Virus record (IMG/VR): IMGVR_UViG_3300027800_000014
Coordinates: 1 to 37,907 of that record
Strand: one strand, 5' to 3'
DNA: 37,907 nt
Origin: a virus
Part shown: in pieces, positions 732 through 37,907 of the stretch
Numbering within the stretch: the stretch's first letter is position 1
How the letters are laid out: each line of letters starts with the position of its first letter
Translations under genes and position numbers: made by a program
The notes under the pieces: model-generated
The model's input: only the letters and a program-made list of their open reading frames with translations
What the model was told of the DNA's origin: nothing
The model's database searches: none

Positions 732-2291
732 ATGAGATATTATGATGTTAAAGGTTTATTAAGCGAGGGGAAAATAGAAGATATTCGCAAGAATGCTCTA
801 AACGGAAGAAAAGAAGTTCTCATAGAAACATATCGTGATTATTACAATGGAAACCAATGGATTTCTAATGGTGCTTTCACTGATACTACAAGAAGTGGGA
901 GAAAAGTATGGAAGATTAATAGCCCTGATCCAAGAGACTTAGGCATTAGTGATGGAGATTTAGCAACTTTCAATGTATGTAGTTCAACAATAGATATATA
1001 CTCCAGTTACGGTAGAGGTTCAATTGATGACCAAAACAGTATCTCAATAGAAGATAACCAAGAGATAGCGGACAAGATTAATGAGAAGATAAACCTTGAT
1101 ACACTAATACAGCGTTCTATTACAAGAATGTCAGTTGATTCAGTTGTTTGCTGGAAGTATACCCAAGACCAATCATTAGAGTTTGTTGATTCTACGCAAG
1201 TAACACCAATATATCTTGAGGATAACATAGTGGGTACAGTAAGAATATACGAGATATCCTCCACCGATCCAATCATTGAAAAGAATAATGTACAGTTAGG
1301 CAAACTACAGAAGGCTGTTTATATGGAAATATGGATGCCTGTTGATAATAAGATGATGTTATACAAGTATGTAAATGAAACAGTAGTAGAAGAGGGAGAA
1401 GCCCCTTACGAGTTTAATCCATTTATATTTGTAGCTAACAAGGACAGTGAATTTGTAAAGTTTGATGAAAACAATCTTGAAGTGTCCGACATAGCCAAGA
1501 TTATCCCCATACAGGATGCTATCAATAAAACAATGACTGAAACGGGAATAATCATATCTAAAGTGGCATTCCCTATGGTTAAAGTCATTAAAGAGATATT
1601 TGAAAAGGTAATGAGTAAAGAGATTGATGGAGAAGACTTAAAGAAACAGTTGTCTCAATTATCATTAGTAGCAGGAAAGATTATATCTGCTCCTATTGAA
1701 GTTGTACCTGGAGCTGGATTACCAAATGGAATAGACAGTTATGTCAATTCATTGTTTGATCAACTATATCGTATTACAGGAATACCAAAGAGCATCTATG
1801 TTACAGAGGGACTAGGAAACATAGCTACTGATACTCTGAGTATGTTCATGGAGTCTATGAAGAGAAAGATTGATGAAAAGAGAACTAACATTGAGAATGG
1901 AATTAAAAAGTATGTTGTAATGTACACAGGCGACCCAAGTATCAAAGATGATGTAAGTATTCAATGGGCTGGTATGTTAAGCATGAGTAAGAAAGAGAAA
2001 GCAGATATGTTAGTACAAGAGAAGAACGCTGGATTCCCATTGTCTTACATAGTACAAGGATTCCTAGATATTGCTGGAGATGCAGACAAGTATGATGAAA
2101 TCATGGAAGCCTTAGGGGAAGCTGACCCAACACTTAAAGTAGAGATTGAGAGACAAAAGACTGCTAATGCAATTAAAGAAGAGAAACAAGCAGAACTAGA
2201 CACTGTTAGAAAGCAGAAAGAGGAAACAGACAAGAAACTAAAGGAAGTAGAAATAGATAATGCTTTGTTGATGAACGCATTAAATTCGTAA
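732..2291 (+). CDS. Portal protein (SPP1 gp6-like)
   Basis: The portal is the dodecameric ring at the capsid vertex through which DNA enters and to which the neck attaches. The 519-residue length is normal. The N-terminal part has the usual YYNGNQW-type segment (about 37-43). The middle holds the long stem and crown region with an IPIQDAINKT helix, and residues around 350-380 (ITGIPKSIYVTEGLGNIATD) are typical of gp6-like portals. The C-terminus (about 470-515) is a charged coiled coil. The ATG at 732 follows a terL-portal gap, with no Shine-Dalgarno. The neighbours (terL before, MuF-like, scaffold and capsid genes after) agree. Confidence 0.9.
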   Translation: MRYYDVKGLLSEGKIEDIRKNALNGRKEVLIETYRDYYNGNQWISNGAFTDTTRSGRKVWKINSPDPRDLGISDGDLATFNVCSSTIDIYSSYGRGSIDDQNSISIEDNQEIADKINEKINLDTLIQRSITRMSVDSVVCWKYTQDQSLEFVDSTQVTPIYLEDNIVGTVRIYEISSTDPIIEKNNVQLGKLQKAVYMEIWMPVDNKMMLYKYVNETVVEEGEAPYEFNPFIFVANKDSEFVKFDENNLEVSDIAKIIPIQDAINKTMTETGIIISKVAFPMVKVIKEIFEKVMSKEIDGEDLKKQLSQLSLVAGKIISAPIEVVPGAGLPNGIDSYVNSLFDQLYRITGIPKSIYVTEGLGNIATDTLSMFMESMKRKIDEKRTNIENGIKKYVVMYTGDPSIKDDVSIQWAGMLSMSKKEKADMLVQEKNAGFPLSYIVQGFLDIAGDADKYDEIMEALGEADPTLKVEIERQKTANAIKEEKQAELDTVRKQKEETDKKLKEVEIDNALLMNALNS

Positions 2292-2300
2292 TAAACAAGA

Positions 2301-3209
2301 ATGCGAGAAACAGAAATAGCTATACTAAAAGCAAGAAAGAGAGCTAATATTAAAAAGGAATTAGTTCTTAAAGAAGAGATAAACTCCAAGATTGAATCTG
2401 TTGATGTTAAAGCTACTACAGCCATTGAACTGTCTAACAAAGTTATAGATAGCCTAAAAGAAACCAATCATGCGTTAGAAGTCATTAAGGAGCTTCCAAT
2501 TAAGACTATAGAAGGGAAGCCAGGGGAAGATGGATACACTCCTGTAAAGGATGTAGATTATTTTGATGGTAATGATGGTTATACTCCTGTAAAGGGAAAA
2601 GATTATTTTGACGGTAAGAATGGAAAGACTCCAAAGAAAGGAGAGGATTACTTCACACCAGAAGAAGTAAAACAATTCAAAAAAGAGGTTACACCTAAGA
2701 AGGGGAAGGATTATGATGATGGTAAAGATGGCTCTCCTGATACTCCTCACGAGATAAGAAATAAACTTTCTACACTTAGGGGTAGAGAAAGACTTGATGC
2801 TAAACATATACAGAATATAGATAAATACGTATCATTAAGTGTTACGCAAACAATGGGTGGTGGACAGGGCGGTGGGAGTTCTTATACATTACCTACGGCA
2901 AGTCCTACAGTTCTTGGTGGTATTAAAATTGGTGATAGAATAACAATAGACGCTAATGGAGTATTAAGTGCTGATGTTCAAACAGGTGCTACAGGAGTAC
3001 AGAGCGTAGTATCAGGAAATGACATAGCAATTGATAATACTGATCCAGTTAATCCAGTTGTATCTTTTATAGGAACAATACCAACAGATACTAATCAATT
3101 GACTAATGGAGCAGGATTTATAACAGCTGAAACTGATCCAGTATGGGAGAGCGAGAAGGTAAACTATGCTACTAAGAGTTTTGCTATAGCAATGTCCGTA
3201 GCCTTATAA
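2301..3209 (+). CDS. Fibre-like protein with collagen-like DGYTPVKG repeats
   Basis: This 302-residue protein starts with a coiled coil (about 1-70). It then has four tandem units of about 15 residues around 77-145, of the form DGYTPVKGKDYFDG, degrading to TPKKGEDYF and TPKKGKDYDDG. The C-terminal half has LPTASPTVLGGIKIG and TNGAGFITAETDPVWESEK, segments common in trimeric phage fibres. No S74 chaperone domain follows. It lies 9 bases after the portal and 16 bases before a giant fibre-like gene, a head-module place rather than a tail-tip place. I infer a trimeric fibre or capsid decoration; which virion part carries it is not shown. Confidence 0.65.
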   Translation: MRETEIAILKARKRANIKKELVLKEEINSKIESVDVKATTAIELSNKVIDSLKETNHALEVIKELPIKTIEGKPGEDGYTPVKDVDYFDGNDGYTPVKGKDYFDGKNGKTPKKGEDYFTPEEVKQFKKEVTPKKGKDYDDGKDGSPDTPHEIRNKLSTLRGRERLDAKHIQNIDKYVSLSVTQTMGGGQGGGSSYTLPTASPTVLGGIKIGDRITIDANGVLSADVQTGATGVQSVVSGNDIAIDNTDPVNPVVSFIGTIPTDTNQLTNGAGFITAETDPVWESEKVNYATKSFAIAMSVAL

Positions 3210-3225
3210 ATTATTAAATACAACA

Positions 3226-6200
3226 ATGAAAAAGAGAATAACAACATATACATTTGATGCAAGTGCAGGTACAATCACCTTTGGGTTTTCACCAGAGATT
3301 GAGGGATTCTCTTTAATAACAAACGTTGTTGATAATGTAGTTATATATCAATTCAATGACAATAACTTGGGTGGTACAGTATTAACAAATGTATTAACGC
3401 TTACATACGATACATCTTCAATGAGTGATACTGATGAATTAATGATTCTTTATGACGATGGGGTTGATACAGCAACTGTAACAGCCAATGCGGGGACTAA
3501 TCTTAATACTTCAGCTTTGGCAGTAGAGACAGGTGGTAATTTAGCAGCAATAAAGGCTAATACAGATGACATTGAAACATTACTTGGAACAATAGAAGGG
3601 AATCAGTTACCAGATGGACACAATGTAACTATAGACAACGTATCAATAGACGTAGATACAGGACTCACAGGCTTGGCTACAGAAACGACATTGTCCAGTA
3701 TAGATGGAAATGTAAACACTATAGCGGGTGGGATTGGTGCTTTAGCTACTACTGATTCAGTACAGGCGTTAGGCACTGCAATGACTGATAATACACAGGT
3801 AACACAGATAGTTAATGCAACGGGAGATGTTGTTACAGTTACAGGAAACAAATTAGATGTAAATGCGAGTATAGACACAACAGGACTTGCTCTGGCTGCT
3901 AATCAACAGACTGATGCTCTTACTGATGCAGAATTGAGAGCCACAGCAGTACCAATATCGGGTACGGTAACAGCAAACACAGGATTAGATTTATCGGGTT
4001 TGGCTACGAGTGCAAAACAATTACCCGATGGGCATGAAGTAGAAGTTAATAATTTCCCAACAGAATATCCATTACCCGCTGCACAAATAACTACGCTAAC
4101 ACCACCAGCTGCAATCACAGGGTTTGCAACCTCTGCTAAACAGTTAGCTGATAACCATCAAGTAACAGTGAGTAATATAGCTAATACGCCTGTAATAACA
4201 GGGTTCGCTACTGAAACAACTCTTGATTCTATTAAAGATACGGATGGTATTAAAAAGATTACCGACGCTCTACCTACAGGAACAAACTCCATAGGGAAAA
4301 TAAGTGATATAACAACATCTATTATACCTGGTACAGGTGCTACTAATCTAGGGAAAGCCAAGGGTAGTCAAGTTGGTGCTACTGATACGGGAGTTGCAAT
4401 ACTTGGCAAATTAAGAGCTGCTGACTCACATACGGATGAAGATGAAGGAGCTTATGATACCTTCTCCATGACTGATTTTCATGAGTTGAGAACTAAAGAC
4501 CAGAGGGCGATTGACTTGGCAAACTGTAACGTATACACGGATTACACGGCTATTTCAAACGACACTACAGGAATTGCTAACTCTACAAACCACGTCTTTG
4601 GAGCAGGGGCTGTAACCTTTAATAAAGTGAATGGTGCTGATAATACCGTCTATGGTGGAGTTTACAAGACAATGACAGCTTTTGATGTTTCTGAAATCTT
4701 TGAGGCTGGAGGATTTGTAGGGATTGGTGCATATCTACCATCATTGACGAATGTGATAAATGTATTTTTGAGAATAGGTACAGATACAACAAACTATAAC
4801 TGTTGGACTTGGCCAGTTGCCAACCTAACCGCAAGCACATGGATGAACCTACGAACACCTGCCGCCACTCCTGACTATGCACGAAACGCAGGGAACGGAT
4901 GGAATACAGCGGCTATCTCTTATGTTGCTTTTGGTGTTGAGTTTAACTCTGAAGCAAATACATTGTCAGGGATTATTATAGATCATGTCCACATGGTGGG
5001 AGGGCGTATAACTTCTACAGATACATCAACTGCTATTACCACGAACGTTAATACTGCAAATATGAATATATTAAAAGTGGGTGGAACTCCTACTGACACG
5101 GGGAATGGGACAACTTCTGCTGGTACATTACGGGTAACAGTATCTTCAGATACAACGGGAGTGTTGAGTGTCGATGACAACGGTGGAGCTTTAACAGTTG
5201 ATAATGGAGGCACGTTTGCAGTTCAATCCACAAACCAAGCAAATAGTGGTGTAGACATAGGAGACGTAACAATCAATAACGCAGCGGGTGCAGCAGCGGT
5301 AAACATACAGGACGGTGGTAATACTATAACAGTAGATGGTTCTGTAACAGCGAATGCAGGAACGAACTTGAATACCTCTACTCTAGCAGTAGAATCAGGA
5401 GGGAATCTAGCTTCTATTAAAACAAACACAGATAAAATACCAGCTCTTGGACAAGCGTTAGCGGGAGCTTCAGTACCAGTTATATTACCCGCAGCAACTA
5501 TAACAACCTTGACACCTCCAGCAGCTATAACGGGATTTGCAACTTCAGCTAAACAGGATACTATAGCAGGATATGTAGACGGTATTGAAGGTTATGTTGA
5601 TGGTATAGAGGGTTTATTGACAACAATAGATGCTGATACAAGCAATGTATCTACAAAGATTGATACTTTAGCTGGAGCGGTAGCAGGAACAGAGGTTCAA
5701 GTTGATGTGCTTACAATGCCAATGACTACAGTACAAGGAACTATAACAGCAAACTTGAGTGCTACGGATAATGCAGTACTAGATGATATTGCAGCTAACC
5801 AAACAGATGGAACACAAAAGACGCAGATTATAGATTCAGGAGGCGAGGCGGTAACAGTAACAGGCGGGAAGCTAGATGTTAATGCTTCTATAGATACTAC
5901 TGGATTAGCTACTTCTGCAAAACAAGATACGATAATAGGACATATAGACGGCATAGAAGGCTATGTAGATGGGATAGAAACAACACTAACGGCAATAAAT
6001 AATAAATTGGTTACGGGAACAGATATAGGGGACGTAACAATTAACAATAGTACAGGTGCGAATGCAGTTAATATACAAGACGGTGGTAATACTATAACAG
6101 TAGACGGAACGGTAACCGCTAACACGGGATTATCCCAACCTCTCACTGATACTCAATTGAGAGCGACTGCTGTACCAATATCAGTAGCCACAATACCTTC

Positions 6201-6990
6201 TCATAATGTAACTAATGCAGGTACTTTTGCAACACAAGCTACACTAGCAGCGGAAACAACAAAGGTAATAGGAACAGTTAATGTAGCAGCAGCACAATCA
6301 ATAGCAGTAACACAATCAGGAACTTGGGACGAGGTAGGGATAAACGATTCAGGAAACTCTATAACTGTTGATGGAACTGTACTTTTAGGAGCAAACTCTG
6401 GAGTCGATATAGGGAAACTAACAGCAAACCAATCAGTTAACGTTGCTCAAATGAATGGGGCAACAGTTACAATGGGCAATGGTGCGGCAGGAACAGGCGT
6501 TCAAAGAGTTACGATAGCTTCTGATTCTACAGGACAGATTAAACTAGCAGCAGGAACGGCAGGTATAGGTAAACTTACAGCTAATAGTGGAGTTGATATT
6601 GGGGATGTAGATATTTTAAGTATTGCAGCAGGAAACAACAATATTGGTGATGTAGATGTAGCCTCTATAGCAGCAGGTACAAATATCATTGGTAAGGTTG
6701 GACACGACATAACAGGGATAGGGCATGGAGTTAAAACAGTAACAACAGCGGGAACAGATGTAGCTTTAGCAGCCTCTACAGTATGTAAAAAGGTTGATAT
6801 TCAAGCTCAAACAGATAACACATCGCTGATAGCAGTTGGTGGTAGCGGAGTTGACGCAACAATAGCGACTGGAACAGGGATTGTATTAAATCCAGGAGAT
6901 ACATATTCATTGGAGATTGATAACCTAGCAGACGTATATATAGATTCTTTAGTTAATGGTGAGGGTGTGAGGTTCACATATTACACATAA
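3226..6990 (+). CDS. Giant repetitive beta-rich fibre or decoration protein
   Basis: At 1254 residues this is the largest gene. It is rich in Thr, Ala, Gly, Asn and Val and poor in Cys, and is made of shuffled repeats: VTANAGTNLNTS (3478 and 5345), TPPAAITGFATSAKQ (4099 and 5512), NIQDGGNTITVDG (about 5290 and 6060), KLDVNASIDTTGLA (about 3850 and 5870) and DGIEGYVDGIE (5578 and 5947). Residues about 404-600 are a non-repetitive insert with aromatic residues, like a jelly-roll or carbohydrate-binding domain. The last 85 residues (CKKVDIQAQTDN to GVRFTYYT) look like a beta-sandwich cap. No signal peptide or membrane segment is seen. Attachment to head or tail is unknown; its place beside the portal favours a head fibre. 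Confidence 0.7.
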   Translation: MKKRITTYTFDASAGTITFGFSPEIEGFSLITNVVDNVVIYQFNDNNLGGTVLTNVLTLTYDTSSMSDTDELMILYDDGVDTATVTANAGTNLNTSALAVETGGNLAAIKANTDDIETLLGTIEGNQLPDGHNVTIDNVSIDVDTGLTGLATETTLSSIDGNVNTIAGGIGALATTDSVQALGTAMTDNTQVTQIVNATGDVVTVTGNKLDVNASIDTTGLALAANQQTDALTDAELRATAVPISGTVTANTGLDLSGLATSAKQLPDGHEVEVNNFPTEYPLPAAQITTLTPPAAITGFATSAKQLADNHQVTVSNIANTPVITGFATETTLDSIKDTDGIKKITDALPTGTNSIGKISDITTSIIPGTGATNLGKAKGSQVGATDTGVAILGKLRAADSHTDEDEGAYDTFSMTDFHELRTKDQRAIDLANCNVYTDYTAISNDTTGIANSTNHVFGAGAVTFNKVNGADNTVYGGVYKTMTAFDVSEIFEAGGFVGIGAYLPSLTNVINVFLRIGTDTTNYNCWTWPVANLTASTWMNLRTPAATPDYARNAGNGWNTAAISYVAFGVEFNSEANTLSGIIIDHVHMVGGRITSTDTSTAITTNVNTANMNILKVGGTPTDTGNGTTSAGTLRVTVSSDTTGVLSVDDNGGALTVDNGGTFAVQSTNQANSGVDIGDVTINNAAGAAAVNIQDGGNTITVDGSVTANAGTNLNTSTLAVESGGNLASIKTNTDKIPALGQALAGASVPVILPAATITTLTPPAAITGFATSAKQDTIAGYVDGIEGYVDGIEGLLTTIDADTSNVSTKIDTLAGAVAGTEVQVDVLTMPMTTVQGTITANLSATDNAVLDDIAANQTDGTQKTQIIDSGGEAVTVTGGKLDVNASIDTTGLATSAKQDTIIGHIDGIEGYVDGIETTLTAINNKLVTGTDIGDVTINNSTGANAVNIQDGGNTITVDGTVTANTGLSQPLTDTQLRATAVPISVATIPSHNVTNAGTFATQATLAAETTKVIGTVNVAAAQSIAVTQSGTWDEVGINDSGNSITVDGTVLLGANSGVDIGKLTANQSVNVAQMNGATVTMGNGAAGTGVQRVTIASDSTGQIKLAAGTAGIGKLTANSGVDIGDVDILSIAAGNNNIGDVDVASIAAGTNIIGKVGHDITGIGHGVKTVTTAGTDVALAASTVCKKVDIQAQTDNTSLIAVGGSGVDATIATGTGIVLNPGDTYSLEIDNLADVYIDSLVNGEGVRFTYYT

Positions 6991-7008
6991 GATTAACAAT
7001 AAACAATT

Positions 7009-7536
7009 ATGGGAGTAAACAATATATTCAAGAGTTTATACAACTATGTTACCAAGACTGGCACTGAAACCCTAACCAACAAGACAATAGACGGGGATTT
7101 AAACACGGTACAAGACTTGGCGTATTCTTCTATTAAGAGTGATAGTAGAACTGGTGCTGATGCAAAATTGGTAACAGGGACGGCTGGAACATCCACAAAC
7201 ATTTTATACTGGAATGGGGACGGGGACGCCGTATCTTCAACTGGTCTTTCTTGGACTAGGGATGCAACCAACTGTAATACTGCTTCGGCAACGCCTGTAT
7301 TTGCACTTGCTGCCCCTGGAGTATATATCTTTACAACATATTACGCAGCGAATGAAGCAAGTAACCCATACTGTGAGACGGCTTTGATATCTGCCGATGG
7401 GACTACTAGAAGCAATGTAACTATTCTGCAGAATGGTTCAGCAGTAACAATTGGGATGTCTAATTTGAATGTGACAATAACTCAAACCTCTGGTGTTACA
7501 CTAACTATGCAGTGGAGTTGTATTAGATTAATATAA
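7009..7536 (+). CDS. Small fibre protein with C1q/TNF-like C-terminal half
   Basis: The protein has 175 residues. The N-terminal segment TGTETLTNKTIDGD (about 17-30) is a widespread phage fibre motif. The C-terminal half (about 85-175) alternates hydrophobic strands (GVYIFTTYYAANEAS, VTITQTSGVTLTMQWSCIRLI) as in a C1q/TNF-like trimeric jelly roll. It is third in a row of fibre-like genes between the portal and MuF-like genes, 18 bases after the giant protein. It may be the tip or cap of the same fibre; this is inference from order. Confidence 0.6.
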   Translation: MGVNNIFKSLYNYVTKTGTETLTNKTIDGDLNTVQDLAYSSIKSDSRTGADAKLVTGTAGTSTNILYWNGDGDAVSSTGLSWTRDATNCNTASATPVFALAAPGVYIFTTYYAANEASNPYCETALISADGTTRSNVTILQNGSAVTIGMSNLNVTITQTSGVTLTMQWSCIRLI

Positions 7537-9107: not shown

Positions 9108-10073
9108 ATGGGTGCAGTAACAAGTAACTATAACAATCAATCTTCCGCTGGTGCAGCAGGATCAGTCGCTTATGCGATAACTCCATTTGCAATGGCAAAA
9201 GGTATTCAAACCTTAAAAAGCAACTTGGTTGTTACAAGCAAAATTAGAAACGTATCTGAAATAGCCAAAGTACAAGGTGGTGGTTATGCAGACAGCATTA
9301 GATTCCCTAAGTGGGGTTCTCTAACGGCTCAGAATAAAGCAGTCGGAACAGAAGCAACACGACAACAGGTAACAATGACCAAAGTCGACTTACAGTTAGA
9401 TACTTTCAAGACTGTTGACTTCTTAATCGAAGATTTCGGTGGATTATTCACACCAGCAGCAAAAGAAGCATTTGCAATCGAAGCAGGTGCAGCAATCGCA
9501 CAAGCAATTGAAACTGATGTTATCTCTAAGTACGCAAGTGCTGGAGTAGATACAGGAGATGTTGATACAGCAGCTTCAGTAGCTATGATTTCAACCTTGA
9601 AGAAACTTGCAAGAATAAACAAATGGAGAAATACAAGTCCATTCATTGCAGTTTGGGGTTCACAAGGTGAGTACGATCTATTGAACGACTCAACATTCAA
9701 GCAACATATGGTAACTGGTGGAGACCAGAGTGCAATCAGAGATGGATTCATAGGGAACATCTACGGATTCCAGAACTATGTCTCTAACATGATGCCAGCA
9801 GTAGCAGGTTCTCCAAGTGCAGAGCATGCAATTGCATTCCAACCAGAAGCAATCGCAATCGCATTTGTTGATATGACTACTCAGAGTCTTCCAGGCGTTG
9901 AAGTAACTCCAATGAATATCTCAGATGATGAGGGTAACCTTGTCTACTCAATGAGAAGTATCGTTGGTTACAATCAATTAGCTAGAGGATTAGAAGTATC
10001 ATTTGATACAATCTATGGAATAGCAGTTGTAGAGCCAACACTCTTAATTGATGTTACATACGGAGCATACTAA
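9108..10073 (+). CDS. Major capsid protein (HK97 fold)
   Basis: This 321-residue protein has a likely N-arm (1-35), an E-loop region (about 50-90, GGGYADSIRFPKWGS) and a P-domain helix (about 105-145, FGGLFTPAAKEAFAIEAGAA). The A-domain ends in a SMRSIVGYNQLARGLE stretch. Its codon use differs from most of the genome: GCA dominates for Ala and there are many C-ending codons (ATC, TTC, AAC), as expected for the most expressed gene. It follows the scaffold gene by 35 bases and a TAGGATTT leader. The next feature is a UUCG hairpin 12 bases after the stop. Confidence 0.9.
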   Translation: MGAVTSNYNNQSSAGAAGSVAYAITPFAMAKGIQTLKSNLVVTSKIRNVSEIAKVQGGGYADSIRFPKWGSLTAQNKAVGTEATRQQVTMTKVDLQLDTFKTVDFLIEDFGGLFTPAAKEAFAIEAGAAIAQAIETDVISKYASAGVDTGDVDTAASVAMISTLKKLARINKWRNTSPFIAVWGSQGEYDLLNDSTFKQHMVTGGDQSAIRDGFIGNIYGFQNYVSNMMPAVAGSPSAEHAIAFQPEAIAIAFVDMTTQSLPGVEVTPMNISDDEGNLVYSMRSIVGYNQLARGLEVSFDTIYGIAVVEPTLLIDVTYGAY

Positions 10074-10108: not shown

Positions 10109-10366
10109 ATGGAAATGAAAGACTTTATATGGGTTACGCCTAACCCTGAAATTGTTACACGCTTCATTGCCTTACCGCCTCGGCTTAATCTCGGTTGCGA
10201 TATATGGACTGAGGTATATATTGGTGAAAAACTTCTCATACATAAATCGTATCTACAAGTAATGCTTAACCGCGGATTCATGATCGGGGATAAAGGATTC
10301 ATATTCGATACCTGGGAGGAAGCAGAGAACTCTCCTAGTAAATATAAGATTAAGGTAACAGAATAA
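10109..10366 (+). CDS. Unknown 85-residue protein ahead of the first glycosyltransferase
   Basis: I do not recognise this protein. It is mixed alpha/beta with no membrane span. The ATG at 10109 (or 10115) lies directly behind the UUCG hairpin, and the stop shares one base with the GT start (TAATG at 10364-10368), so the two are translationally coupled. Pairs such as KLLIHKSYLQVMLNRGFMIG suggest a small folded domain. By position it may assist the GT or be a head protein. Confidence 0.7.
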   Translation: MEMKDFIWVTPNPEIVTRFIALPPRLNLGCDIWTEVYIGEKLLIHKSYLQVMLNRGFMIGDKGFIFDTWEEAENSPSKYKIKVTE

Positions 10367-11331
10367 TGAAAATATACTACAAGTTTACGAATGCTATTAA
10401 TGGGGGACTTGGTGTGCTTGGGAAAGGGATACAACAAGGATTAGTTAATGCAGGGCATGAGATTGTAGGAAGTAACCCTGATATATGTTTTTGTTATGGT
10501 ATGCCTAACACTCTAATAGAAACCAGAGAAAAGTTTCCTGATAAAAAGATTGTTTACTATACTGTATTTGAATCAAGTAAATATCCTGTAGGTTGGATAG
10601 ATACTATCAAGAAGAGCAAACCAGACTTGGTATTAACAGCCTCTAAGTTTAATCAATGGGTATTGAAACGACAAGGTATAGAATCAAAGGTGTGGCATCA
10701 TGGTATAGATGATAGATGGCAGTATAAAGCTAGAAGAGATGATGGAGTATTTACATTCATCCACTGGAACGCCTACGAATGGCGAAAAGGATGGGAGATA
10801 GTACTTGGTGCTTTCCTAGAGGAATTCGATGTTAGTGAGCCAGTACAGCTCGTTATGAAGGCAAGGGATAGAGGGAATGGCAATTGGTTAATACCTCAAG
10901 TAGGAGATGGATTAGTTGCTCCTAATGTGAAAGAGATAATTGGACATATATCAGATTTAGAAATGACTGAAATGCTAGAGACTGCTGATTGTGGAGTATT
11001 CCCTGTTAAAGGTGAAGGTTGGTTCATGCCTTCGTTTGAATGCGTAGCTCAAGGTATTCCTGTTATACTCCCTAAGCAAATGGCAATGAAAGAACAATGG
11101 GGAACAGGGTATTTAGATTGTGGTATTGAGGGGTATGTAAATGCTTCACCACGATATCCAGGATTTATGATAATGCCAAGTAAAGACGGTGTTAAAAAAC
11201 AAATGAGATGGGCATACGAACATGAGGAGGAGTGTAGAGAACTAGGAGAAAAAGGTAGCAAAGAAGTGTATAATAAATATAACTGGAGAAGAATTATTAA
11301 TGAGCTTGAGAGCTATTTAAGTTTAGTTTAG
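10366..11331 (+). CDS. GT4-like glycosyltransferase in the head module
   Basis: This 321-residue GT-B type enzyme would transfer sugar from a nucleotide-sugar donor. The acceptor half (about 1-120) is short. The donor half holds the GT4 E-x7-E motif (Glu217 to Glu225 in EGWFMPSFE) followed by CVAQGIPVILP, and an earlier segment (IHWNAYEWRKGWEIVLGAF, about 132-150) fits the R/K-G region that contacts the diphosphate. It lies between capsid and connector genes, so the likely acceptor is a virion protein rather than DNA or host envelope, but this is inference. It shares its start with the stop of 10109. A second GT4 gene lies at 34538. Confidence 0.85.
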   Translation: MKIYYKFTNAINGGLGVLGKGIQQGLVNAGHEIVGSNPDICFCYGMPNTLIETREKFPDKKIVYYTVFESSKYPVGWIDTIKKSKPDLVLTASKFNQWVLKRQGIESKVWHHGIDDRWQYKARRDDGVFTFIHWNAYEWRKGWEIVLGAFLEEFDVSEPVQLVMKARDRGNGNWLIPQVGDGLVAPNVKEIIGHISDLEMTEMLETADCGVFPVKGEGWFMPSFECVAQGIPVILPKQMAMKEQWGTGYLDCGIEGYVNASPRYPGFMIMPSKDGVKKQMRWAYEHEEECRELGEKGSKEVYNKYNWRRIINELESYLSLV

Positions 11332-11337
11332 ATTGCT

Positions 11338-11676
11338 ATGTTTATTGTAAATCAATGCGGAAGGATAGTTGATTTGCCAGAAGAAATGGAAGAGTCTGGA
11401 TTTAAGCAGGCAAAAGTTGTTCTTTCTATATCGGATTCTTTAATGGAGAATGGTAACTATGTAGCTCCTTCGGGAGGACAGGGTGGGGTGTTAGTATCTA
11501 AGAGTGGTAGAAACCTTAGAAATGATATTCTTGCTAAGTTCCCTGATGTCATAAGAGACTCGGAGTATATAGAAAGACATGTCAATGCAGAAGAAACTAA
11601 ATTAATTGTTCCTAAAAATGATAGATCCAAGGTACGCAGAAATGCTAAAACAACCAAAGTATCTAGTAAAAGATAG
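11338..11676 (+). CDS. Stand-alone GRIVD-domain protein, paralogous to the N-terminus of the second GT
   Basis: The protein has 112 residues. The first 20 (M-F-I-x-N-x2-GRIVDLPEEMEES) match the N-terminus of the GT at 34538 (M-Y-I-x-N-x2-GRIVDVSEAFEES) almost position for position. After a Gly-rich turn (SGGQGG, about 46-51) the rest is basic and ends in a Lys/Arg-rich tail. It begins 6 bases after the first GT. The shared domain in a stand-alone form beside one GT and fused to another suggests a GT partner, docking or acceptor domain. The family function is unknown to me. Confidence 0.75.
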   Translation: MFIVNQCGRIVDLPEEMEESGFKQAKVVLSISDSLMENGNYVAPSGGQGGVLVSKSGRNLRNDILAKFPDVIRDSEYIERHVNAEETKLIVPKNDRSKVRRNAKTTKVSSKR

Positions 11677-11821
11677 GGAGTCAGGCAAGACTTATATAGC
11701 ATTTGAAAGTTACGCTAAGAAACTAGATGGCAATGGATTTGATATTATAGCTAAAGAGGGGGAGAAGGATTTTGTGATGGTTAAAAAAGACAAGGGAAAC
11801 AAAAAGGGGAAAGGGAAATAA
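11618..11821 (+). CDS. Small basic protein of unknown function
   Basis: This is a 67-residue reading frame from the ATG at 11618 that overlaps the 3' end of the GRIVD-domain gene by 59 bases in another frame. The text MIDPRYAEMLKQPKYLVKDRESGKTY reads as a folded N-terminal part, and the tail (KKDKGNKKGKGK) is strongly basic, as in many small head or neck proteins. An upstream TTG would add 4 residues but ATG is preferred. I do not recognise it. Confidence 0.65.
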   Translation: MIDPRYAEMLKQPKYLVKDRESGKTYIAFESYAKKLDGNGFDIIAKEGEKDFVMVKKDKGNKKGKGK

Positions 11822-33742: not shown

Positions 33743-33994
33743 ATGCCAAGAGCAAAAAAACAGGTTCAAGAATACCAAGAACCAAAAACAAATGGTATGG
33801 CGATTGCAGGATTTATTCTCACTATGTTGGGAATATTCACCTTTGGTTATACAACCATTGCTGGATTTGTCGTAGGGATTATAGCCTTGTTCCAGATTAA
33901 CAAGAGAGGTGAGAAGGGTGAGTGGATGGCAATCGTATCAATAATCTTTGGCACATTGCTTTTACTCTTCCTTATTTTAGGGGCTTCCATGTAA
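33743..33994 (+). CDS. DUF4190-like membrane protein
   Basis: The 83-residue protein has a polar start (RAKKQVQEYQEPKTN) and two spans (about 18-48 and 61-81). The pattern NGMAIAGFILTMLGIF, then GFVVGIIALFQINKRGEKGE and WMAIVSIIFG is that of DUF4190. The function is unknown; DUF4190 proteins are common in bacterial membranes. Its stop shares one base with the HNH gene ATG. Confidence 0.75.
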   Translation: MPRAKKQVQEYQEPKTNGMAIAGFILTMLGIFTFGYTTIAGFVVGIIALFQINKRGEKGEWMAIVSIIFGTLLLLFLILGASM

Positions 33995-34356
33995 TGCCAC
34001 AAACTGCCTCTAAGAAAACAATTGAAAGGAAATTAGATAAGGCATGGAGCAGAGCAATCCTTTCTAAAGGGAGATGCGAGGTATGTTCTACAAAGGAATA
34101 TCTTAATGCTCACCATGTAGAAGGGAGAAGAAACCTACAACTAAGATGGGACTTGAGAAATGGAGTATGTCTATGCTCAGGTTGTCATGTATTCAGGAAG
34201 GAATCTGCTCACCAGAGTCCAGAGTGGTTTCATACATGGCTAGAGAGTAACCGCAAGGAAGACTTAGAATATATTATGGCTATTAGAAATAATATAGTAA
34301 AATGGACTATAGAAGATTTATTAAATAAATTAAGTGAATTAGAACAATGCAAGTAG
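33994..34356 (+). CDS. HNH endonuclease-like protein
   Basis: From the ATG at 33994 (TAATG with the previous stop) the product has 120 residues. The nuclease core has CEVC (Cys28, Cys31), the beta strand with NAHHVEG (His40, His41), RNGVCLC (Asn56, Cys61) and SGCHVF (Cys64, His65): a zinc-stabilised HNH. HNH proteins beside terminase genes can aid DNA packaging (as HK97 gp74). Here TerS and TerL lie further on, separated by the sugar-transferase genes. Confidence 0.75.
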   Translation: MPQTASKKTIERKLDKAWSRAILSKGRCEVCSTKEYLNAHHVEGRRNLQLRWDLRNGVCLCSGCHVFRKESAHQSPEWFHTWLESNRKEDLEYIMAIRNNIVKWTIEDLLNKLSELEQCK

Positions 34357-34520
34357 TAGTTAATGGGATATTTTGTGAGTTAGAGAAGCCAATAACCAAG
34401 GAACAGGAGAAGTTGGTTAAAGAAATGCTAGATAATTGTTTTGTGTTTACTTATTACGCTCCAGAAGACCCAAAGAAAGTCCCAATTGAAACTGTATCGG
34501 TAAAGTTAAAGAAGAAATAA
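34347..34520 (+). CDS. 57-residue small protein
   Basis: An ATG at 34347 overlaps the HNH stop by 10 bases and runs 57 codons. The product (MQVVVNGIFCELEKPITKEQ onward) is mixed beta/alpha, with FVFTYYAPEDPKK in the middle and a basic end (VKLKKK). It ends 17 bases before the second GT gene. Family not recognised; the fit to both neighbours supports translation. Confidence 0.6.
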   Translation: MQVVVNGIFCELEKPITKEQEKLVKEMLDNCFVFTYYAPEDPKKVPIETVSVKLKKK

Positions 34521-34537
34521 GATAATCTATTTATCGA

Positions 34538-35785
34538 ATGTATATTAAAAACGCAACTGGTAGAATAGTTGATGTGAGCGAGGCTTTTGAAGAGTCTATG
34601 TGTCATGGATCAGGGATAGAGATTATATCGGTATCTCAACACTTCATAGATACTCACCCAGAGCAGTACGCAAGACTCAAAAGGGACAATCCTTTGTTAA
34701 TGACGGATGAATTCTATTTGGGTACTCCTAAGACTCCACAAGCGAGTAAGAAGGAACGAATTACGATAACAAAGAAACTCCAGGTTAAAGTCCCAAAGAA
34801 TAAGATACATTTCGTTATATATCCTAACTATCTACCTAAGGTTGGGGGTATAGAAACAGCGGTATATCAACTAGCTAAACTCCTAGATAGAAAGAAATAC
34901 TTTGTAACGATAGCGTATAACTGTTGCGAGTCTGAAGAGGCTATGAAAAAGTATGCAGAGGTATCTAATTTAGTGAAATTAGAAGATAAAGTTTTAGATT
35001 GTGATGTATGTCTACTAGCTTCTAACCATTTAGAACCACCCCAGATTAAAGCGAAACTATGGATGCAGTGGGTTCATAGCGATTACGAGAAATACAACAG
35101 TATGCCATTAGCAGACAACCCTCATGTCAAACAGTACATATCAGTAAGCAAGCATGTAGCTAAGATATTCAAGAAGCTATATAAAAAAGATTGTGCAGTT
35201 ATATATAACCTTTTAGATCCAGACTTCGGCAAGAAAGCTAAAAAACCAGTACGATTTGTAACCAATGCAAGACTATCCCCTGAGAAAGGATTTGATATGA
35301 GATTCGGGGACTCTAAGATGTTCAAGTTTGCTAAGTTACTCAAGGCTAGTGGCATACCTTTCTTGTGGACTATATGTGGGGATAATACGCACATGCCTAA
35401 TGAAGATAAAGCAATTAGGGAAAATTTTAAAGATATTGAAGAGGTGCAATTCGTAGGATATAAAAGTGATGTTACTTTAAGACTAACGGAAGCTGATTAC
35501 CTAGTACAGTTATCAGACTTTGAAGGTTGTCCATATACAGTACTAGAAGCATTACAAATGGGTATCCCTTGTATAGTGTCAGAATGGAAAGGTGTTGAGG
35601 AGTTAGTTAAAGACGGCGTTAATGGTTATATTATAAATCAGGACATAGACAATGTGAATATAAAGAAGATACTAACTAAAATCCCCAAAGGATTCGATAC
35701 TACACCTAAGTCTTCTATTGGAGATTGGGAGAAATTAATTGATAAAGTAAATCATGTTCAAACCCGTAGAACAAAGACACGATAA
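34538..35785 (+). CDS. GT4-like glycosyltransferase with N-terminal GRIVD domain
   Basis: The 415-residue protein has an N-terminal GRIVD domain (about 1-60), which matches 11338, then a basic linker, and then a GT-B enzyme (about 88-410). GT4 landmarks are GGIETAVYQLAKLLD (about 103-117), LSPEKGFD (about 247-253), a GDN segment, and the E-x7-E motif EGCPYTVLE (Glu329 to Glu337) followed by ALQMGIPCIVSEW. All expected donor-site motifs are present, so it should be active. It overlaps the DUF115-like gene by 32 bases. A virion acceptor is inferred from place and from the domain shared with a head-module protein. Confidence 0.85.
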   Translation: MYIKNATGRIVDVSEAFEESMCHGSGIEIISVSQHFIDTHPEQYARLKRDNPLLMTDEFYLGTPKTPQASKKERITITKKLQVKVPKNKIHFVIYPNYLPKVGGIETAVYQLAKLLDRKKYFVTIAYNCCESEEAMKKYAEVSNLVKLEDKVLDCDVCLLASNHLEPPQIKAKLWMQWVHSDYEKYNSMPLADNPHVKQYISVSKHVAKIFKKLYKKDCAVIYNLLDPDFGKKAKKPVRFVTNARLSPEKGFDMRFGDSKMFKFAKLLKASGIPFLWTICGDNTHMPNEDKAIRENFKDIEEVQFVGYKSDVTLRLTEADYLVQLSDFEGCPYTVLEALQMGIPCIVSEWKGVEELVKDGVNGYIINQDIDNVNIKKILTKIPKGFDTTPKSSIGDWEKLIDKVNHVQTRRTKTR

Positions 35786-36428
35786 GGTATTAATAATCGG
35801 AGGAGGGGAAAGCCTCAGAGATTTTGATTTCAGTTTGTTAGACTCCTTTGATGGGGTTATTATTACTGTCAATCATGTTATTAAGCATCTAAAGAAAGCT
35901 GATTATTGGATTACTGTTGACCCATGTCTTGAAGGTAAAGCACAAGACAATATGACCAACCGTAGAGATGACTGTTATTATTTTGCCTGTTACCCACAGA
36001 TAGATGATAAAAATAGGGAATGGTACGAGATTGTTGATGGGGTACATTACTTAGAAAGGATAGTCCCGAAGGGTGAAGAAGGCGTGGAGTTGGGTTTTTC
36101 TGGACTACAAGAAGATAAAGATAAAATAACGACAGGGGATTCAGTGTACTCGGCTCTAGGATTGGCATATCATTTCGAGGCTACTAAGGTTATATTATTA
36201 GGCGTTGATTGCTACGGGTATGGGCATTGGTACGATACTACAGATCCATACAATAAATCGTGGGGAGACAAGTTTACAGAATATGTAACTAATCTACCAA
36301 AGATATATAGCCATAGCGTTAATCAGTTCAATCTTAGAGGAGCTAAAATAGTAAACGGATCGCCAGAGAGTAGGATAGATTGTTTTGAAAGAATGACTCC
36401 AGAACAGGCTATAAAGTACTTTAATTAA
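35754..36428 (+). CDS. DUF115/GT42-like transferase (Maf or sialyltransferase type fold)
   Basis: The 224-residue protein begins with a Rossmann-like site VLIIGGGESLRDFDFSLL (about 12-29), then VIITVNHVIKHLKKADYWIT and a second motif TGDSVYSALGLAYHFEATKV, followed by ILLGVDCYGYG. This pattern is shared by DUF115/Maf proteins, which put nonulosonic acids on flagellin, and GT42 sialyltransferases. A pterin-kinase-like (MptE) member is an alternative. The gene overlaps the GT by 32 bases, so the two probably act in sequence. Confidence 0.7.
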   Translation: MFKPVEQRHDKVLIIGGGESLRDFDFSLLDSFDGVIITVNHVIKHLKKADYWITVDPCLEGKAQDNMTNRRDDCYYFACYPQIDDKNREWYEIVDGVHYLERIVPKGEEGVELGFSGLQEDKDKITTGDSVYSALGLAYHFEATKVILLGVDCYGYGHWYDTTDPYNKSWGDKFTEYVTNLPKIYSHSVNQFNLRGAKIVNGSPESRIDCFERMTPEQAIKYFN

Positions 36429-36437
36429 TGGTATAAT
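36429..36437 (+). promoter_or_regulatory. Consensus extended -10 promoter, leaderless start
   Basis: TGG-TATAAT (full match) ends 5 bases before the ATG at 36443, so the transcript should begin at the start codon. It would drive 36443, the TerS candidate and TerL, and possibly head genes through the circular junction. Confidence 0.65.
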
Positions 36438-36442
36438 CAAGT

Positions 36443-36829
36443 ATGAAGGTAATCAATGGGGAACTCAAGAATTATAACAGGCGTGTTGATAGAAGCGTAA
36501 CATTTAAGATAGACTCGCTACTTGAAATGAGTAGCTCAGACATAAAAGAGATTGATGAACATATAGGAGATATAGGGTTGTTAGTTCTTACAGATACCCC
36601 AACAGGTAATGAGGTTAATATTGATATTGATGAAATACTGAAGAACTTACCAGAGAATGATACACTAGCCTATAAGTCTCCAAGCAAAAGATTGAGGAAT
36701 GTATTATACTGTTATTGTAGGCAAATATTAAAGAAACAGCCTACTAAAGAAGAGTTTACAGAGTTCTATAAAAACGAGTATGAAAAGATTATAGAACACT
36801 TTAAGAGTAAGTTAGATGATAATTTATAA
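36443..36829 (+). CDS. Conserved phage protein of unknown function upstream of terminase
   Basis: The 128-residue protein has a beta-rich N-terminal part (INGELKNYNRRVDRSVTFKI), an acidic middle and a YKSPSKRLRNVLYC segment, then a helical tail FTEFYKNEYEKIIEHFKSKLD. The KSPS-x-RLR...FYK...II...K-x-KLD layout is a pattern I know from phage proteins near terminase or recombination genes, without a known function. The leaderless promoter and place make it part of the packaging transcript. Confidence 0.75.
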   Translation: MKVINGELKNYNRRVDRSVTFKIDSLLEMSSSDIKEIDEHIGDIGLLVLTDTPTGNEVNIDIDEILKNLPENDTLAYKSPSKRLRNVLYCYCRQILKKQPTKEEFTEFYKNEYEKIIEHFKSKLDDNL

Positions 36830-36859
36830 ACCGATAGAGGTTAAGAATTTTTAATAATC

Positions 36860-37168
36860 ATGGGTAAATCAACTACAGAACAAGCACAGGAAAGTAAAAA
36901 TACTCAAGCCTTGAAGAAAATAGGTATGGAGCAGTTGTTTGAATTTCTTAACGAAGATGATGGGGATTATACTAGGGAGAGGAAATTACTTAATGCTGTA
37001 TACAAAGATGCTTTGAGTGATTCTAAAACAGCCATGTATTCTGCTAACAGTTTATTAGATAGAGACTTAGGTAAGGCAAAAGAGAGTAAAGATGTAACGA
37101 GTGGGGGAAAGCCATTGCAAACTGTTTCATTTGATATTATAGGTGATGATACAACTACAGGGGACTAA
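36860..37168 (+). CDS. terS: Terminase small subunit candidate
   Basis: The 102-residue protein is placed directly before TerL and overlaps it by 23 bases. The N-terminal part has helices (MEQLFEFLNEDDGDYTRERK; LLNAVYKDALSDSKTAM) but no clear helix-turn-helix. The C-terminal part (KDVTSGGKPLQTVSFDI) resembles tails of phage small terminases, which bind TerL. TerS sets the packaging start. Length and place fit; the DNA-binding part is not evident. Confidence 0.65.
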   Translation: MGKSTTEQAQESKNTQALKKIGMEQLFEFLNEDDGDYTRERKLLNAVYKDALSDSKTAMYSANSLLDRDLGKAKESKDVTSGGKPLQTVSFDIIGDDTTTGD

Positions 37169-37907
37169 CGCCGTTGTATATTGGACTAGGAAACAACTAG
37201 AGTTTATACGGGCTATACAAACAAAGAAATATCAATTCATGTTATTTGGTGGATCAATGGGTGGTGGCAAAAGTCAACTCATGGCTAGAACTTTCATATC
37301 GTTATTAGACTCTCACGCTGGTACAAGGTGCTTTGTGTTTAGAAAAAACTTATCAGTATTAAAGAGAACGACATATCAGACATTCAAACAAGTAGCAACC
37401 GAATTCGGCACAGTGTATACAGAGAATAAAAGTGAGATGTGTTGGAACTTTCCCAATGGAAGTCAATTATGGTTTCAAGAGTTAGATGATACCAAAGATG
37501 GGGACTGGAATAAGATTAAGGGTGTAGAGGCTACATGGATAGGTATAGATGAAGCTAATGAAATACAAGAGGGTGCTTTCAATATCTTAATGGGTAGAAT
37601 GTGGAGATGTAACCCCAACAAGGAGCATTCATTTATGATACTTACTTGTAATCCAGCACAGAATTGGGTTAAGGAAAGATTCTATACCCCGTGGGTTAAT
37701 AATACATTAGAAGAACCATTCTATTTCCAACAGGCATTAACTAGAGATAACCCTTTCTTACCATCTGAGTATATACAGACATTAGAGTTATTACCTGAAT
37801 CCGAATACAATCGTTATGTGCTAGGTAATTGGGATTTTGCTGATGACCCAAACCAATTGATTAAATACGAATGGATTAAACAGAACATATGGAATCCTAC
37901 AGAAGAG
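37146..37907 (+). CDS. terL: Terminase large subunit, N-terminal part (gene continues at 1)
   Basis: The start is the ATG at 37146, which overlaps the TerS stop by 23 bases; it is the only ATG that keeps the whole ATPase. The product has Walker A GGSMGGGKS (about 35-43), Walker B WIGIDEA (Asp135, Glu136) and the coupling segment LTCNPAQNWVKERFY. The gene runs to the window end and on through 1-679 for 437 residues in total. TerL drives ATP-fuelled packaging and cuts DNA. The packaging type (cos or pac) cannot be told. Confidence 0.95.
   Translation, partial: MIQLQGTNAVVYWTRKQLEFIRAIQTKKYQFMLFGGSMGGGKSQLMARTFISLLDSHAGTRCFVFRKNLSVLKRTTYQTFKQVATEFGTVYTENKSEMCWNFPNGSQLWFQELDDTKDGDWNKIKGVEATWIGIDEANEIQEGAFNILMGRMWRCNPNKEHSFMILTCNPAQNWVKERFYTPWVNNTLEEPFYFQQALTRDNPFLPSEYIQTLELLPESEYNRYVLGNWDFADDPNQLIKYEWIKQNIWNPTEE
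37781..37907. repeat. Terminal direct repeat, right copy
   Basis: Identical to 1-127. Removing one copy gives a circle of 37,780 bases with an intact TerL gene. Confidence 0.97.

Follow-up and report, generated by a model that had tools for sequence, protein, structure and literature searches.

A small protein from the head gene block of an uncultivated phage and a glycosyltransferase encoded at a distance, GT2, have homologous N-termini, as sequence comparison confirms, and GT2 lies within a swappable gene cassette, which is new here. The window, by which we mean the whole stretch of DNA that was analysed (37,907 nucleotides), encodes the small protein, 112 aa in length and hereafter called 11338, at 11338-11676 on the plus strand, with an ORF translation that starts MFIVNQCGRIVDLPEEMEES, and the 415-aa GT2 at 34538-35785 on the same strand, with an ORF translation that starts MYIKNATGRIVDVSEAFEES. 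We tentatively favour a scenario in which the cassette glycosyltransferase captured a domain of the head module as a targeting module, a reading to which we give somewhat less than an even chance. The genes and the shared domain, which we call the GRIVD domain, are as follows.

11338..11676 (+): GRIVD-domain protein, 112 aa, consisting of an N-terminal domain (~residues 1-80) and a basic tail
34538..35785 (+): GT2, GT4-type glycosyltransferase (PF00534, 3.8e-18; phrog_2170, 7.2e-12)
34538..34735 (+): GRIVD domain at the N-terminus of GT2, residues 1-66 (by profile, hhalign and BLASTP)

A sequence-only reading of the same DNA had counted about 12 shared positions among the first 20 of the two proteins, and this count was borne out, as residues 1-20 align without a gap and with 12/20 identities (BLASTP, pairwise E 6e-5). 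The likeness is more than chance, since a profile built without GT2 still picks GT2 out. A profile of five lineages, GT2 excluded, run over the 509 six-frame ORFs of the window matched 11338 and GT2 only (GT2 at E 1.4e-4), and a six-lineage profile that likewise omitted GT2 scored its residues 1-66 at 21.3 bits, compared with a maximum of 7.6 in ~5,000 shuffles. The first 20 residues are the strongest stretch of likeness and reach 15.9 bits by themselves, while past residue 20 the likeness between 11338 and GT2 is weaker but significant, up to ~residue 63. When residues 21-66 were shuffled with residues 1-20 held fixed, the real GT2 score was reached in three of 2,000 shuffles (p ~0.002), and hhalign of the 11338 family (GT2 excluded) against GT2 aligned 63 columns (E 8.5e-6), taking in a PxxxTDExYL stretch near residue 60. 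The GT2 N-terminus also aligns with a relative from another lineage, L008, at 42% over 44 aa (E 6.5e-5).

The IMG/VR scans revealed the stand-alone GRIVD protein in six lineages, namely the window (with the identical contig G001), G002/L004, L006 (= L008), L020, L021 and L036. In 6/6 lineages the capsid protein gene is followed by those for the 85-aa protein, GT1, the GRIVD protein, the small basic protein and a connector-like protein, and the GRIVD gene is located directly downstream of GT1 in all six, a position that GT2 does not share. The earlier observation that the separate copy follows a glycosyltransferase holds, this being GT1 (10366), which lies immediately upstream of 11338. By its gene position, the stand-alone GRIVD protein is a candidate virion structural protein. 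Its neighbours in the window are listed here.

9108..10073 (+): major capsid protein (phrog_267, 4e-20)
10109..10366 (+): 85-aa protein between the capsid protein and GT1, conserved in the group (alignment of five lineages)
10366..11331 (+): GT1, GT4-like glycosyltransferase without a GRIVD domain (phrog_2170, 3.6e-27; Pfam below cut-off)
11606..11821 (+): gene for a small basic protein, located downstream of 11338 with an overlap, conserved in the group (alignment); an ATG at 11618 is a possible start

The idea that the two neighbouring small proteins have the same fold-like pattern (hairpin, helix, G-F) was discarded, as hhalign returned no relation. In L021, the Mu F-like head morphogenesis protein (405-2066) has an intein inserted in it (PF14890, 8.1e-11), and a 239-aa ORF with an endonuclease-like look (1134-1853, minus strand) is nested opposite the intein-bearing gene.

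The region common to the stand-alone proteins spans residues 1-80, and the GRIVD domain has a length of ~65-80 aa. Beyond it, the window and G002 proteins end in a basic tail, in contrast to L008, L020, L021 and L036, which carry a C-terminal extension that is missing from 11338 and looks HeH/SAP-like by eye (weak matches to PHROGs 2724 and 3281, nothing above a Pfam cut-off). Members of the family start with M-[FY]-hydrophobic-x-N-x2-G-R-x-V-[DG], to which GT2 conforms, and 12 positions are invariant in GT2 and five lineages, including N5, GR8-9, V11, D12, E18, S30 and S32. In the sixth lineage, L036, D12 is replaced by G; S30 and S32 do not vary in any lineage or in GT2. This pattern is more in line with a module under constraint than with drift; dN between 11338 and its L004 counterpart is 0.08 and dS 0.52. 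Scans of both N-termini against Pfam, PHROG and NCBIfam gave no family and nothing meaningful, profile searches of solved structures gave chance matches at E of at least 0.1 that fall outside the GRIVD motif, and a literature search found no paper on the domain.

Altogether seven versions of the domain were found, six of them separate proteins and the seventh GT2. The search for an association with glycosyltransferases that the sequence-only reading had called for came out in its favour, in that 7/7 copies are part of a glycosyltransferase or its direct neighbour, a count confounded by conserved synteny. Since all seven come from one syntenic phage group, the count does not distinguish a link with GT1 from a link with the head block, and no lineage examined has GT1 and the GRIVD gene separated. 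Searches with tblastn of phage and plasmid collections returned no relative of the domain, annotated phages, plasmids and prokaryote genomes contained no copy of it, and genome contigs scanned with the GRIVD domain and with GT1 gave no match to either. Contig L026, which a relaxed DNA pattern had brought up, encodes a LamG-type protein in another frame and was set aside as a chance match. Among the collections scanned, the GRIVD domain appears only in this one uncultivated phage group.

That the second copy is fused to a glycosyltransferase, as had also been proposed, holds as well, GT2 being a GT4-type enzyme with an additional N-terminal part of ~90 aa. PF00534 scores 66 bits on GT2 against a curated cut-off of 26.4, the catalytic part runs from ~residue 91, and the E-x7-E motif is kept in GT2 (329-337) as in GT1 (217-225). 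The GRIVD domain makes up residues 1-66 of the additional part (~residues 1-90). Since the match to the glycosyl transferase of the Butyrivibrio phage Arawn begins only at residue 93 of GT2, the domain is an extra part joined to an otherwise ordinary GT4 enzyme. Within the domain, GT2 lacks two features of the stand-alone proteins, the GF-x-[QE]-A motif and the LP turn, with MCHGSG in place of GF-x-QA and VS in place of LP. Its domain is 38% identical to that of L008, 32% to 11338 of its own genome and 25-26% to those of L020, L021 and L036, compared with 44-66% among the stand-alone lineages (save one pair at 87%). GT2 is best described as a diverged homologue and not as a standard member of the GRIVD family. 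It is not a recent duplicate, because its copy is only 32% identical to 11338 of the same genome; 40/60 nucleotides are identical, and the same codon is used at 7/11 shared residues when 5.0 are expected from codon usage. The fusion is known once, with GT2 identical in the window and in contig G001.

Comparison with G002, a close relative, places GT2 in its genomic setting. Capsid protein, GT1 and 11338 are 98%, 88% and 86% identical between G002 and the window, but at the position of GT2 G002 carries an unrelated gene set without a GRIVD domain, consisting of a 292-aa GT-B-like protein (recognised by eye, with no Pfam match), a GT-A protein (PF00535) and a methyltransferase (PF13578). Because this unrelated set lies between the same flanks, GT2 and the 35754 gene constitute an exchangeable glycan cassette, and GT1 and 11338 are core genes. 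Homology with G002 stops at 34516, and GT2 starts 22 bases on, at 34538. The GRIVD copy of GT2 may have come in with the cassette, whose second gene and edges in the window are as follows.

33992..34516 (+): left flank of the swapped cassette, 79% nucleotide identity with G002; end of the HNH gene and a 57-aa ORF
34347-34520: the 57-aa ORF at the left cassette edge, overlapping the end of the HNH gene and conserved in G002
35754..36428 (+): second gene of the GT2 cassette, MptE-like or sialyltransferase-like (phrog_2111, 4.4e-24; phrog_4603, 5.1e-12; PF01973 sub-threshold)
36423..36839 (+): right flank of the swapped cassette, 83% nucleotide identity with G002; a 128-aa gene upstream of the putative small terminase gene

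The G002 gene for the GT-B-like protein (L033, reverse complement of ~3970-4900) has no standard start before the first predicted strand; an ATA ahead of DKSVLIHNF may serve as start, or a frameshift may be present. The large terminases also differ in family between the two phages, phrog_2/979 in the window (37143-37907 plus 1-679) and phrog_38 in G002 (L033:11447-12910, minus strand), despite capsid proteins that are 98% identical and portal genes with ~83% DNA identity. A further region that differs strongly from G002, as the glycosyltransferase cassette does, lies between the portal and head morphogenesis genes (2301-7536) and encodes three proteins, one collagen-like (2301-3209), one repetitive and fibre-like (1254 aa) and one of 175 aa, all of them possible glycan acceptors.

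The genome probably maps as a circle of ~37,780 bp. Circularity is supported by an exact 127-bp terminal direct repeat (1-127 and 37781-37907) and by contig G001, which reads across the end junction of the window; 127 bp is the size expected of an assembler overlap. On this circle 11338 and GT2 are ~14.6 kb apart, in keeping with the more than 14 kb first estimated.

How might a domain of the head block have come to serve a glycosyltransferase of an exchangeable cassette? What is observed comprises homology, sequence-based domain boundaries, fixed synteny, cassette exchange and intact GT4 motifs. The GRIVD domain is a conserved module in a small protein whose gene accompanies that of GT1 in the head block, and GT2, from a surface-glycan cassette that is exchangeable and lies where the late genes begin, bears a diverged copy of this module ahead of an otherwise ordinary GT4 enzyme. 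In both proteins the module may bind one common partner, which would be GT1 or some component of the head under assembly. Through the fusion, GT2 would then be brought to the site of this partner, likely at the assembling virus particle, where GT2 would extend or add sugars on the virion proteins on which GT1 presumably works. Such a targeting function is favoured by the homology, the synteny in six lineages, the extra 90 aa, the cassette swap, the E-x7-E motif and the invariant positions, and it is weakened by the fact that one fusion is known and that G002 keeps the stand-alone protein without a GRIVD-bearing glycosyltransferase. Moreover, binding by GT2 could be changed, given the lost GF, QA and LP residues.

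The sequence-only reading had gone further and seen in the two copies a matching docking or acceptor tag that unites enzyme and virion component. The homologous N-termini, the 7/7 copies linked to glycosyltransferases and the conservation of the stand-alone protein in the head block speak for this idea, but G002 speaks against a matched pair specific to GT2, as it retains both 11338 and GT1 without a GRIVD-bearing glycosyltransferase. The conserved role of 11338 thus needs no GT2, and the two are not obviously a co-evolved pair, since the copy in GT2 is nearer to that of another lineage than to 11338 of its own genome.

The main rivals to a targeting module are accretion at the recombination boundary and a role as partner of GT1. 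In the former, which is unlikely, a 5' gene fragment of a diverged relative was joined to the incoming glycosyltransferase at cassette exchange and provides a start site and a tolerated extension without any docking. GT2 indeed begins exactly at the boundary of recombination with G002 and several family residues (GF, QA, LP) are gone from its copy, but at least 10 family-invariant positions are kept despite 62-75% divergence from every lineage, and a functionless extension of such age would be expected to erode. It is also possible, though again unlikely, that GT1 has the GRIVD protein as a small subunit or regulator and that GT2 borrowed the module to join the GT1 complex, in which case the virion would not be the docking site. 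The adjacency of GT1 and the GRIVD gene in 6/6 lineages and the presence of the sole other GRIVD copy on a glycosyltransferase are in accord with this view; yet GT1 is just as tightly linked to two other genes, the 85-aa gene and 11606, rendering adjacency unspecific, and no lineage was found with GT1 and the GRIVD gene apart. That the domain is itself a sugar acceptor (e.g. at Ser30 or Ser32), with the stand-alone protein glycosylated and GT2 modifying itself, was part of the earlier proposal and is in accord with the invariance of both serines in GT2 and all lineages, but is very improbable because the domain has no known acceptor motif, the serines lie within a hydrophobic VLSIS/IISVS stretch resembling a buried strand, and an enzyme with its own acceptor would be unusual.

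Returning to the targeting module, a broader but distinctly doubtful version would have the GRIVD domain act as a virion-address module, with the cognate docking site kept in the head block beside the core glycosyltransferase and swappable glycan cassettes plugging in via the same module. If true, sugars would be put on virions by a modular system with interchangeable parts. The acceptors of many phage glycosyltransferases are unknown, and a domain common to a head-block protein and a glycosyltransferase provides a testable hint of an acceptor on or near the virion and of how an exchanged glycosyltransferase could be aimed at it. Even if the targeting reading is wrong, GT2 would still exemplify a phage enzyme cassette that acquired a domain from a structural module.

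We know of no other case of an accessory domain common to a head-module protein and a glycosyltransferase. Phage-encoded glycosyltransferases of mycobacteriophages reportedly glycosylate capsid and tail, with genes located near structural genes; there virion proteins are modified, as they may be here. The nearest annotated matches to GT1, the glycosyltransferases of Rhodococcus phage Trina and Streptomyces phage Muntaha (~27% over nearly the full length), are encoded beside ribonucleotide reductase and lysin genes and not beside a capsid gene, and neither record yielded a GRIVD gene. For the catalytic part of GT2, the nearest annotated phage match is the Arawn enzyme (QHJ73590.1; 29.7% over residues 93-403), whose gene starts 11 codons before the match and hence lacks the GRIVD domain, and which lies beside an SSB gene rather than a terminase gene. 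GT1 and GT2 resemble the GT4-type phage glycosyltransferases of PHROG 2170 and PF00534 in their phrog_2170 match and their E-x7-E motif, but these profile matches are limited to the glycosyltransferase part, and GT2 has an additional N-terminal module of ~90 aa.
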